In this document: positions 19,886 to 24,989 of the stretch, in pieces
Layout of the letters: each line of letters opens with the position of its first letter
Numbering within the stretch: the first letter of the stretch is position 1
From: Ascidiaceihabitans sp.
GTDB taxonomy: Bacteria; Pseudomonadota; Alphaproteobacteria; Rhodobacterales; Rhodobacteraceae
NCBI GenBank assembly: GCA_028825475.1
Contig: JAPKAB010000017.1
Span: 1 to 57,418 of the forward strand
Length of the DNA: 57,418 nt
Direction of reading: 5' to 3'
Notes under the pieces: model-generated
What the model was told of the DNA's origin: nothing
The model's database searches: none
What the model saw: only the letters and a program-made list of their open reading frames with translations
Position numbers and translations under genes: made by a program

Positions 19886-20587
19886 CTATTTACGGATAAA
19901 GGTCATGTAATGCGGTGTGCGATCTTCGCGTAGCGCTTTTTGTTCGTAACGCGTGCTGATCCAATCATCCCACGGTACGCGCCAATCTTCTGGCCCCTCA
20001 GCCGTCCATTCAAACGGCTGCTTTGGGACTTCCTGCATGGTTTGACGCACATAGTCAGGAATGTCAGTCGCAACGCGAAAAATTGAACCCGGTTTCAAAA
20101 CGCGTGCAAGGGGCGCAAGATGTTCTTCGGTTACAAAACGACGACGATGGTGGCGCGATTTCGGCCACGGGTCAGGGTAAAGAAGAAACGCGCGATCAAT
20201 GGAGGCATCAGGCAGCACATCAAACATATCGCGCACGTCACCCGGATACACCGCAAGGTTTTTGACACCCGCTTTTCTGATCTTGCCCAGAAGCATCGCA
20301 ACGCCATTGATGTAGGGTTCGCATCCGATGATGCCAACATCAGGGTTTTGGCCACATTGGTGCACCATATGCTCGCCGCCGCCAAAACCAATTTCAAGCC
20401 ACGTGGACTTACCACCAAACAAGGTGTTCAGATCCAGATTATTACGATCAGGATTCACATCCCAGTCGACTGACCCAGGGGACAATGCATCAAGATCTTC
20501 GGCCAAATAGCCCTCTTGCGATTGCTTGAGGTGCTTGCCTTTGAGGCGGCCGTAAAAATTGCGGTGTGGGCGTACAGGTTGTGTCAT
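19886..20587 (-). CDS. trmB: tRNA (guanine-N7-)-methyltransferase
   Basis: Adds a methyl group to N7 of G46 in the variable loop of tRNA, using S-adenosylmethionine. The 233-aa protein has the SAM-binding [11 protein letters not shown] motif (around residue 60), the [17 protein letters not shown] signature (around residues 134-150) and a C-terminal [17 protein letters not shown] segment that binds tRNA. All are intact. It lies downstream of metK on the same strand across a hairpin; both enzymes belong to SAM metabolism. Confidence 0.97.
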
Positions 20588-20681
20588 GGGCGCGGTTTAT
20601 CCAGCGCAGCGCATCAAAGCAAGCGCATGCTAAGGCAAGGACCGATTAATACCATTGGTTAGCACGCTGTAAAAACGGCAA

Positions 20682-20710
20682 CGGGCAGCGTCAAGAATGA
20701 TCGCTGCCCG
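20682..20710 (-). terminator. Hairpin between metK and trmB
   Basis: CGGGCAGCG (20682-20690) and CGCTGCCCG (20702-20710) form a 9-bp GC-rich stem. Read on the minus strand it follows the metK stop; a short T run comes a few bases later, so termination may be partial, leaving some readthrough into trmB. Confidence 0.65.
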
Positions 20711-20733
20711 TCTAAAAAATTATTTTGCTAAAG

Positions 20734-21915
20734 TTAAACGGCTTTTTTCAAAGCTTCTATCAAATCCGTTTTTTCCCAGCTGAAACCACCATCAGCTTCA
20801 GGCGCACGTCCAAAGTGGCCATAGGCCGCTGTCCGCTCATAGATTGGTTTATTCAGACCAAGGTGCGAACGTATGCCGCGTGGTGTCAGGTCCATGACGC
20901 TATCGATTGCTTTTTCGATCATGGCATCGTCAACTTGACCCGTGCCGAATGTATCGCAATAGATCGACAACGGCTTGGCTACGCCAATTGCGTAGCTCAA
21001 TTGAACGGTACATTTATCAGCCATGCCAGATGCGACAATGTTTTTTGCCAAATAGCGCGAAGCATATGCGGCGGAACGGTCAACCTTGGTTGGATCTTTA
21101 CCAGAGAATGCGCCACCGCCGTGCGGTGCAGCACCGCCGTATGTATCAACGATAATCTTACGGCCTGTTAGGCCTGCATCGCCATCTGGCCCACCAATTA
21201 CGAACTTACCAGTTGGGTTAACATGCCATGCGGTATCAGGGGTAATCCAGCCTTCAGGAAGAACCTCAAGAATATATGGTTCAACGATCGCACGGATGTC
21301 AGAGGATTCAAGATTTGGATCAAGGTGCTGTGTAGACAATACAATTGAAGAGACACCAACTGGTTTGCCGTCACGGTAGATCACCGACAACTGACTTTTC
21401 GCGTCTGGGCCCAAAGCTGGCTCAGTACCATTCTTGCGCACCTCAGCCAAACGGCGAAGGATCGCATGGGAATACTGGATCGGGGCCGGCATCAGCTCTT
21501 CGGTTTCAGTTGTCGCGTAACCAAACATAATGCCTTGGTCGCCTGCGCCTTCATCTTTGTCTGCCGCCGCATCAACACCTTGAGCGATGTGAGCTGACTG
21601 TTCGTGCAATAGGTTCGTAACTTCAATCGTGTTCCAGTGGAACTTATCTTGCTCATAACCGATGTCTTTGACACAGTCGCGTGCGATTTGATCAATACGC
21701 CCCATGTAGTCTTTAAGTTTCGATTGATCCGACAATCCGACTTCACCACCGATGACAACGCGATTGGTTGTCGCAAAGGTTTCCGCCGCAACACGCGCTT
21801 CTGGTTCTTCACTCAAGAACGCATCCAACACCGCATCTGAAATGCGATCACACAACTTATCAGGGTGGCCCTCTGAAACGGATTCAGAAGTAAAAGTATA
21901 ATTTTTACGGGACAT
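20734..21915 (-). CDS. metK: S-adenosylmethionine synthetase
   Basis: Makes S-adenosylmethionine from methionine and ATP. It has the GHPDKLCD motif at the start, the [15 protein letters not shown] phosphate-binding loop, and the DKxGxSxxYxxR-type C-terminal residues. The correct start is the ATG at 21915 ([12 protein letters not shown]): GGAG lies 7 bp upstream, and the frame continuing to 22005 runs through a riboswitch. Length is then 393 aa. Expression is likely controlled at translation by the SAM/SAH riboswitch just upstream, which covers the GGAG site. Confidence 0.97.
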
Positions 21916-21919
21916 ATAG

Positions 21920-21964
21920 TGCTCCAATGTTTTCATGTGTGCCACGTCAGGAAGCCGTTGTGGG
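21920..21964 (-). promoter_or_regulatory. SAM/SAH riboswitch in the metK 5' leader
   Basis: On the minus strand CCCAC (21960-21964) begins a stem whose other arm is GTGGC (21941-21945). Its loop carries AACGGCTTCCTGA, and GCTTCC can pair with the TGGAGC at 21921-21926, which contains the metK ribosome-binding site. This is the known SAM/SAH class: the ACAACGGCTTCCTG core and TTGGAGCA end match what I recall of the Rhodobacterales metK consensus. When SAM (or SAH) is bound the pseudoknot would hide GGAG and stop translation. The loop between stem and binding site is longer (ACACATGAAAACAT) than in the shortest members. Confidence 0.9.
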
Positions 21965-22005
21965 ACATCGATGCTCCGCCTATCGTTCTGTCGTTGGGGG
22001 GTCAA

Positions 22006-23490
22006 TCATTTGCGGCTGCGGCCAAACGTCATTTTTTGCAAAAGAGTTATGAAAACCACAGATAGCAATAAGATCACGATCGGAAGATCCCCAAGCGCGC
22101 TATAGACTGTCGGTGGCAACGGTTTGGGCAGCAGTCCATCCACAAATCCCGCTTCGTTCAGTGCAAGGCTGTTTAACACGCGCCCATACGGGTCGATCAT
22201 AGCACTAATCCCAGTATTCGCGGCTCGCGCCATTGGCAAACCTTGCTCAATCGCACGCATTTTAGCCTGTGCTAAATGCTGCTTTGGCCCTGCAAATGTA
22301 CCGAACCATGCGTCGTTTGTGAGTTGAATAAGAAAGTCCGGTCTATCTTTCGCAGCCCCAACATCATGCGCGAAAACGGCTTCATAACAAATCAAAGGAA
22401 GCCCCTTCCCCAGCGCGCCAAAATCAAGGGTTTGTGCTCCCTCCCCCTCACCAAAACCATCCCCGAACATATCCGCAAAGACGTGCAACCCCAGCGCAGA
22501 CAAGACTGGCCGTAAAGGCATGTATTCTCCAAATGGGACCAGGTGGTGTTTGTCATAGGTGGCTGTGATTTGACCGACAGGATCGAGAACCACCATGCTG
22601 TTATATAATGTAGGCCCATCAGCACGCAGAATGCCTAAAGCAACTTGCGCACCACGGCCAGCTTCACCAGCAGCCTGCAAAATTCCAGGTGCATTGTGTG
22701 CAAGATACGGCAACGCTGTTTCAGGCCACAGGACCAAGTCAGGTACATCGCCCGCTTGCGTGGATTGCAAGAGACGGTCGATAAAAATGCCAAATTTCGC
22801 TGGATTCCACTTATCGCGTTGTGGTGCGTTCGGTTGAACTAGGCGCACAATGTGCTCTGTTAGTAATGCGGGACCTGTCAAAGGAGGGCTAAGTGTGAAT
22901 ACCAACCCAACAAGACAGGAACCTATGAACACAACATTGGAGATCTTCTTTGATTGAAAGATTGCAAATGCTCCAGCACACATTGCGAACATGACTCCAT
23001 GCGGACCAACTAGTGCCAGTGACTGCCCCGCAAGTACGTCCACCAGAGCCTGTGGCGGTGAACCCCACGGGAAACCTGTAAAGACATATGCCCGTAAAAG
23101 TTCGACCAAGGGCCACGTCACAACCAATATCCAAACGGGTCCCAAATAGCGAGCCAGTCCGAAGGCCAGTCCCCAGAATAGTGCCATGCCACCCGCCATC
23201 AGAACCAAAGCGAATGGTGCCATCCATGCGGTTTGCTGCGCATCCACTTGAAACGGGGCTGTTATCCACTGCAGCGTGATCAGGAAATAGCCAAAGCCAA
23301 TCATCCAGCCAATGTGTGCGGCATGGCGCATGCTGGACGAGGTTAACAAGCCCATGAAACCCAGCGCCATCATAACAATTATTAGCGGTGCTATGGCAAA
23401 TGGTTGTTGCGCCAAGGCACCGATCCCGCCGACAAAAATCGCACAAAGGCTTTGCGCCCAAAGCGGCAACGCTTTGACGCGATCAATCAT
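22006..23490 (-). CDS. lnt: Apolipoprotein N-acyltransferase
   Basis: Adds the third acyl chain to the N-terminal cysteine of lipoproteins in the inner membrane. Residues 1-~205 hold about six membrane helices, followed by a periplasmic nitrilase-type domain with the catalytic Glu257 (WPETALP), Lys314 (YDKHHLVPFGEY) and Cys368 (ICYEAVF), and a final membrane helix. Length 494 aa is normal. It lies directly after corC with a 4-base overlap and before metK. A lipoprotein with a lipobox is encoded at 26185-26496. Confidence 0.97.
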   Translation of the reverse strand: MIDRVKALPLWAQSLCAIFVGGIGALAQQPFAIAPLIIVMMALGFMGLLTSSSMRHAAHIGWMIGFGYFLITLQWITAPFQVDAQQTAWMAPFALVLMAGGMALFWGLAFGLARYLGPVWILVVTWPLVELLRAYVFTGFPWGSPPQALVDVLAGQSLALVGPHGVMFAMCAGAFAIFQSKKISNVVFIGSCLVGLVFTLSPPLTGPALLTEHIVRLVQPNAPQRDKWNPAKFGIFIDRLLQSTQAGDVPDLVLWPETALPYLAHNAPGILQAAGEAGRGAQVALGILRADGPTLYNSMVVLDPVGQITATYDKHHLVPFGEYMPLRPVLSALGLHVFADMFGDGFGEGEGAQTLDFGALGKGLPLICYEAVFAHDVGAAKDRPDFLIQLTNDAWFGTFAGPKQHLAQAKMRAIEQGLPMARAANTGISAMIDPYGRVLNSLALNEAGFVDGLLPKPLPPTVYSALGDLPIVILLLSVVFITLLQKMTFGRSRK

Positions 23491-24425
23491 CCCGCGTGAT
23501 CAGGCAGGCAAACACGAAGGCGTTTAATCCGGCGTGGATCTGCATCAACAACCTCAAATTCAGTGCCATCAGGATGCATCACGACTTCGCCGCGCGCAGG
23601 AACGCGTCCTGCTAACATAAACACAAGCCCACCAAGCGTTTCAATGTCTTCACCGTCAACGTCTTCGTGCTCAGTCAACGACAGGTTCACTTCGGACTCA
23701 AAATCCTCAAGCGGTGTTTTAGCTAGAGCAAGATAAACGCCTGCCTTTTCGAGGCTCCAATGTTGATCTCCATCGACATCGTGTTCATCTTCGATCTCAC
23801 CAATAACTTGCTCGATCAAATCCTCAATCGTGGCAAGTCCATCTACGCCACCATATTCATCAATGACCAAGGCCATGTGACGCCGTTCAGCCTGCATTTT
23901 CGTCAGCAAAACGCCAATCGTCATCGAAGGCGGCACAAACAGCAGGGGCCGAAGCATCTTTGCAAGATCAAATGCACCACCACCACCATTGAAGCCGTGG
24001 GTCAAAGCAAGGTCTTTAAGGTGGGCGAATCCCACGGGGGTATCCAGCGTTCCATCATAAACAGGCAGTCGTGTGAGACCGCTCTCTTTGAACTTAGCAA
24101 CAAGTTCTTCCAGAGACACGGTTATAGAAACAGCGATGATATCGGCTTTGGGCAAAGCGACATCTTCGACCCGCATCCGGCGCAGGTTCAACATGCCATG
24201 GCTATACTTGAAACGTGCTGGCTGAGGTGCCATTTCGACGTCCTCACCGATGTCTTTCGGGCCGAACGAAGCAATGAAACGGGTCAAAATTCCGCCCTTG
24301 TGCTTCGGCGTTTCTACAGTTTCAGATGGTTCCAAAACCGGAACTGCACTCGATGAAGTGGTCGTTACATTGCCTGACTGCGCGCGTTGCGCTGCGCCAG
24401 ACGATCCGTCGTCAGTGTCGCCCAT
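23487..24425 (-). CDS. corC: CorC/HlyC-type CBS transporter-associated protein
   Basis: A 312-aa soluble CorC (YbeX) protein of the magnesium and cobalt efflux family. It contains a pair of CBS domains (about residues 83-210; RVEDVALPKADIIAVSI and MALVIDEYGGVDGLATIEDLI) and the CorC_HlyC C-terminal domain (about 225-305, LGGLVFMLAGRVPARGE). The membrane DUF21 domain is missing, as in E. coli CorC. Together with ybeY, phoH and lnt it forms the classic cluster. The four-base overlap with lnt shows coupling. Its direct role in transport is not established. Confidence 0.92.
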   Translation of the reverse strand: MGDTDDGSSGAAQRAQSGNVTTTSSSAVPVLEPSETVETPKHKGGILTRFIASFGPKDIGEDVEMAPQPARFKYSHGMLNLRRMRVEDVALPKADIIAVSITVSLEELVAKFKESGLTRLPVYDGTLDTPVGFAHLKDLALTHGFNGGGGAFDLAKMLRPLLFVPPSMTIGVLLTKMQAERRHMALVIDEYGGVDGLATIEDLIEQVIGEIEDEHDVDGDQHWSLEKAGVYLALAKTPLEDFESEVNLSLTEHEDVDGEDIETLGGLVFMLAGRVPARGEVVMHPDGTEFEVVDADPRRIKRLRVCLPDHAG

Positions 24426-24482
24426 TGGGTTCCGTTCTATAGGGGCAGAGATTTCTGCCGTTAACCAAGACAGATGATCTGC

Positions 24483-24989
24483 CTATCTTGTACAATATGG
24501 GTCATCTATGCCCATTTTTTCAAGTATTTCTACCTCTAACGCTTCCATCAACGTGGCATCTTGGTCACGCACGTGATCATAACCCAACAAATGAAGCGTC
24601 CCATGGATCATTAAATGCATCACATGGTCTTGCATTGCCTTGCCCGCAGCAATCGCTTCGGATGCACAGGTGTCATAGCTAATTGCTATGTCGCCCAACT
24701 CAAGGCCGCCCATTGGATCATGTGCCGGTTGGCTTGGTGAATCACCCGCGCCCTGTGCGCTAAGCTCTGCGGCTGGCCAACTCAAAACGTTCGTAGCTGT
24801 GGGTTTTTCGCGAAAATCCGCATTTAGTTCAGCTATGCGTGCGTCGCCACAGGCCAGAACCGCCACTTCCGCGTCCTCACCGTCAATTTCAAGACGCTCC
24901 ATAACGCCAGCAACTGCAGCATCGGCAATTGTCTGTAAATCAACGGCAAGCCAACGATCATCGTCAAAAACGATATCTACTTCTGCCAT
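24483..24989 (-). CDS. ybeY: Endoribonuclease YbeY (rRNA maturation)
   Basis: A single-strand-specific metal-dependent RNase needed for 16S rRNA 3' end maturation and ribosome quality control. The metal-binding HGTLHLLGYDH motif (His129, His133, His139) is intact. The protein is 168 aa, slightly longer than E. coli YbeY (155) because of an insertion near residues 76-95. It overlaps phoH by one base, so it is cotranslated; corC follows after 57 bp. Confidence 0.96.
   Translation of the reverse strand: MAEVDIVFDDDRWLAVDLQTIADAAVAGVMERLEIDGEDAEVAVLACGDARIAELNADFREKPTATNVLSWPAAELSAQGAGDSPSQPAHDPMGGLELGDIAISYDTCASEAIAAGKAMQDHVMHLMIHGTLHLLGYDHVRDQDATLMEALEVEILEKMGIDDPYCTR

Follow-up and report, generated by a model that had tools for sequence, protein, structure and literature searches.

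The window, by which we mean the whole stretch of 57,418 nucleotides analysed here, carries the genes ybeY, a CorC-like gene, lnt, metK and trmB in this order on one strand (19886-24989, minus). The matches of the CorC-like gene and of trmB fall short of the curated NCBIfam cut-offs. The MetK product scores 493.7 bits against TIGR01034 (cut-off 309.4), and metK is thus the gene behind the element, as the preliminary description had it. The closest records (98-99% identity in MetK) bear the label Rhodobacteraceae or Ascidiaceihabitans, and the host is a Rhodobacteraceae bacterium close to Ascidiaceihabitans.

The element studied here lies on the minus strand between lnt, whose stop codon ends at 22006, and the metK ATG at 21915. 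Its parts are listed in Table 1. The layout first described, a stem, a loop and a GGAGC strand upstream of metK, is present.

Table 1. Features of the metK leader, with positions in the window and the basis of each assignment.
Feature	Position	Strand	Basis
SAM/SAH riboswitch aptamer (RF01727), whole model	21920..21969	-	Covariance-model score 51.1 bits (gathering score 40)
P1 stem, 5' arm UGUCCCAC	21960..21967	-	Sequence; P1 pairing in relatives
P1 extension, loop and putative ligand pocket AACGGCUUCCUGAC	21946..21959	-	Sequence mapped on the published structure, PMC7367207 (parts of the paper)
P1 stem, 3' arm GUGGCACA	21938..21945	-	Sequence; P1 pairing in relatives
Linker from P1 to the pseudoknot, ending in A43-U44-U45; holds the in-frame ATG 21936-21934	21926..21937	-	Sequence; relatives
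GGAGC, Shine-Dalgarno sequence and predicted second pseudoknot strand	21921..21925	-	Sequence; relatives; PMC7367207 (parts of the paper)
metK, S-adenosylmethionine synthetase, start ATG 21915	20734..21915	-	TIGR01034, 493.7 bits; start from relatives

Family match and base-level mapping

A covariance-model search of the 57 kb window against 4227 Rfam families matched RF01727 (SAM-SAH) at 21969-21920 on the minus strand, with 51.1 bits and E = 3e-8. The gathering score of the family is 40 bits, and the search confirms the membership in the SAM/SAH class that had been proposed for this leader. The full model is covered (positions 1-49 of 49), with one inserted base compared with the 49-position model. 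With permissive settings no second Rfam family appeared in 21800-22100 at E up to 1. The window's own genome gave seven RF01727 matches at E up to 10, six of them at 11.5-13.5 bits and only the one in the metK leader over the cut-off. None of 14 control genomes has a match over the cut-off, and sub-cut-off matches occur in all 14 at E up to 10 and in one of the 14 at E up to 1. The match in the metK leader is above chance level. The leader element is almost certainly an ordinary SAM/SAH riboswitch in the expected place, judged from its sequence, and binding of the ligand by this copy, taken over from the family, is very likely.

The conserved loop core CGGCUUCCUG is found at 21957-21948 on the minus strand, with its pseudoknot partner GGAGC at 21925-21921. 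Single bases are numbered as in the crystal paper (PMC7367207, the parts of it used here); the transfer onto the window is our own mapping. Counted outward, the P1 pairs are C12-G27 (21960, 21945), A-U, C-G, C-G, C.C (21964, 21941), U-A, G-C and U-A, i.e. below the loop P1 has four pairs, a C.C mismatch and three pairs. In the P1 extension, A13 and A14 (21959, 21958) stand opposite C26 and A25 (21946, 21947), and C15 (21957) pairs with G24 (21948). The predicted pseudoknot joins G17, C18, U19, C21 and C22 (21955, 21954, 21953, 21951, 21950) with C50, G49, A48, G47 and G46 (21921-21925), leaving U20 (21952) of the GCUUCC strand (21955-21950) unpaired. U23, which according to the crystal paper pairs with the adenine of the ligand, maps to 21949, and A43-U44-U45 to 21928-21926. 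All the pseudoknot and ligand bases taken from that paper (G16-C22, U23, G24, U44, G46-C50) are present in the window.

Variation of the leader among relatives

In a sample of the order (390 genomes), RF01727 is matched at E up to 1 in 362 genomes and over the cut-off in 353. Within the genus the cut-off is exceeded in 10 of 12 genomes, the window's own genome counted, and the two assemblies with no match are 76% and 88% complete. Among 80 loci chosen by MetK similarity, 79 extend upstream of metK (L060, left out, is cut at a contig end), and all 79 hold CGGCTTCCTG, then GGAGC, then the ATG.

For the comparison of leaders, 138 entries (137 loci and the window, whose leader is the same as L001) were reduced to 122 distinct leaders. 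The entries were chosen for CGGCTTCCTG followed by GGAGC, so the conservation of both strings in this set is a selection artefact and 79/79 is the unselected figure. Ten loci were dropped because the core or GGAGC is absent (L002-L007, L060, L127, L146, L147). Over-represented in the set are the 80 closest MetK relatives, the 30 top-scoring matches from the order sample, the 19 genomes that were rescored, and the genus. The pseudoknot strands are invariant across the set, and covariation is therefore unable to test the pseudoknot.

P1 pairs 1-4 are standard in all 122 leaders. Over the 57 distinct P1 arm pairs, standard pairs fill 372 of 399 cells, compared with a mean of 303 and a maximum of 319 in 1000 shuffles of whole 3' arms, in a test that takes the leaders as independent and leaves kinship uncorrected. 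These counts argue that P1 pairing is kept in the relatives. The C.C at pair 5 of the window belongs to a position that is non-standard in 15 of the 122 leaders, including L121, L122, L124 and L126. These leaders are identical to L040, L038, L041 and L039, respectively, whose MetK is 98-99% identical to that of the window. We read the mismatch as lineage-level drift in the stem, with no new architecture, and as the sole, mild peculiarity of the window copy.

The preliminary description had proposed that the spacer between the stem and the GGAGC strand is longer than usual, so that the linker with ACACATGAAAACAT might make a distinct subtype, and the one base inserted relative to the Rfam model fits this idea. 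The window linker, counted from C26 to GGAGC, has 20 bases. Among the 122 leaders the lengths are 17 (2 leaders), 18 (14), 19 (49), 20 (37), 21 (16), 22 (2) and 25 (2), i.e. only a length of 19 is more frequent than 20, 116 leaders have 18-21 bases and 57 have at least 20. The proposal is refuted by this comparison: as to length the census rules it out, 20 bases being within the normal range, and a long-spacer subtype is extremely unlikely.

The comparison also provides a small census of the natural variation of the element. The linker spans 17-25 bases in all 122 leaders, C occurs in 20 of them at position 45, beside the ligand site (metK leaders such as L071, L085, L093 and L107), and A in six at position 26, the sister L121 among them.

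Second elements were looked for in 19 rescored genomes, a subset of those with at least two matches listed. Only G132 has two elements over the cut-off, each before a metK (L132, G132:C1:323872, and L145, 586270); the two genes are 84% and 83% identical to that of the window and each element scores 60.6 bits. G273 and G276 have one further match each, of 23 bits, below the cut-off. In a sister-species assembly, L127 (G390:C125, 1045-1224) is a decayed metK-like fragment, with 43 residues matched and one internal stop, and the SAM/SAH element that precedes it is decayed as well (23.1 bits); an intact metK is also in the assembly. L127 is either a relic of a duplication or a contaminant contig (the assembly is 85% complete with 2% contamination).

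We examined 25 genomes with no match or only a sub-cut-off match, leaving out eight further matchless genomes. Sixteen of the 25 belong to genus g7 (L157-L172) and encode a MetK that is clearly distinct (55-57% identity); a strong RF01727 match does occur in others of the genus, G006, G092 and G321 among them. In this genus, replacement of the MetK gene may be linked with loss of the riboswitch. The remaining nine (L148-L156) are from other genera, with MetK 65-78% identical and a SAM/SAH match that is absent or weak (G227, G344). By eye, no loop core was seen in the five of these loci whose printed stretch includes the metK start (L149, L153-L156).

Start codon of metK

The longest open metK frame begins at TTG 22005 and has an in-frame ATG at 21936. 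A start at either codon would put the element inside the coding sequence. No stop interrupts this frame in the window or, over the 36 bases examined, in L038, L040 and L041, three of the four relatives closest to it, and seven of the 79 relatives have some in-frame ATG before any stop in that 36-base stretch. However, 44 of the 79 have an in-frame stop at most 36 bases upstream of the metK ATG, and at the place of 21936 an in-frame ATG is missing from all four nearest relatives. The codon there is ATA in L038 and L040 and AGA in L041, and in L039 an ATG stands one base out of frame, the metK frame itself showing a stop at that place. In L042 a stop codon immediately precedes the metK ATG. The comparison with the relatives led us to reject a start at 21936, and an upstream start of either kind is scarcely credible.

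On the minus strand GGAGC is followed by five bases and then by the metK ATG (21915-21913). Because of the in-frame stops of the relatives, the upstream ATG that they do not keep and this spacing, the predicted start at ATG 21915 holds. The preliminary description had taken the riboswitch to establish this start; the start itself is borne out by the relatives, but a riboswitch alone is not proof of it. An annotation of this region should include the element and set the metK start at 21915, not at TTG 22005 or ATG 21936.

Predicted regulation and comparison with known systems

The published model of the family is translational: the ligand stabilises a pseudoknot that masks the Shine-Dalgarno sequence (PMC7367207 and the single-molecule study PMC10516623, in the parts cited here). 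For another member of the class, the parts of PMC2864571 used here give a KD of about 8.6 uM for SAM and 4.3 uM for SAH. From this family we carry over to the window copy the binding of the ligand, the folding of the pseudoknot and the control of translation. The ligand-free RNA would be mainly the P1 stem-loop, with GGAGC exposed, and ribosomes would initiate at ATG 21915. When SAM or SAH is plentiful, the ligand would stabilise the pairing of GCUUCC with GGAGC, the Shine-Dalgarno sequence would be masked and less SAM synthetase would be made, i.e. a negative feedback on translation. A scan of 20550-22250 found no terminator-like site on the minus strand, and we found nothing in the window copy that favours a non-translational mode. 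The same scan gave three promoter-like sites, with 1.9 expected, and none upstream of metK on the minus strand; it is limited in the promoter types covered, and metK may thus still have its own promoter.

A plain fold of the leader, a method blind to pseudoknots, is no more stable than those of shuffled sequences (z = 0.13). In this fold, bases immediately upstream of P1 pair with the last part of the linker and with the first two G of the Shine-Dalgarno sequence, a competing hairpin that could weaken the ON state. This hairpin is shared with the nearest relative, L121, and is absent from the plain folds of L122, L124 and L126. In 39 of the 122 leaders, the window included, the Shine-Dalgarno sequence is paired upstream at least as strongly. 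We rejected the hairpin as a special feature, its strength being not unusual in the set and three of the nearest relatives lacking it; it is probably background, with a faint possibility of a role as modulator.

The C.C at pair 5 and the competing hairpin in the plain folds of the window and L121 could also suggest a degenerate copy, in which switching is abolished and metK is expressed with no ligand control. However, the loop, the pocket and the Shine-Dalgarno strand are intact, the 51.1 bits are well above the cut-off, and, with pair 5 non-standard in 15 of the 122 leaders, the mismatch is evidently tolerated. Such a loss of function is very unlikely. A milder effect is also unlikely, in which the interrupted P1, perhaps with a contribution of the hairpin that the window shares with L121, shifts the switch point and gives this species and its nearest sisters a less sensitive switch specific to their lineage.

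The reading as an ordinary SAM/SAH riboswitch agrees with what is known of the class. A SAM/SAH element before metK has already been reported in Rhodobacterales (PMC2864571), and it precedes metK in 13 of 15 Rhodobacterales genomes (PMC4239095), as given in the parts of these papers cited here. The element is a normal example of this known class, and the novelty claimed for it is absent. Riboswitch classes for SAM or SAH other than this one have related ligands and some precede metK (PMC4239095, same parts); none of them matches 21800-22100 in Rfam at E up to 1. With RF01727, as described in the published parts used here, the window copy shares the whole-model match, metK downstream, a Rhodobacterales host, the loop and the pseudoknot strand with the Shine-Dalgarno sequence, and it departs by the C.C at P1 pair 5. 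The crystallised RNA (PMC7367207, within the parts mapped) has A43-U44-U45 before GGAGC, as in the window, and agrees with it at all mapped bases except position 25, which is G there and A here. This is a common change: of the 122 distinct leaders, 66 have A at this position and 56 have G.
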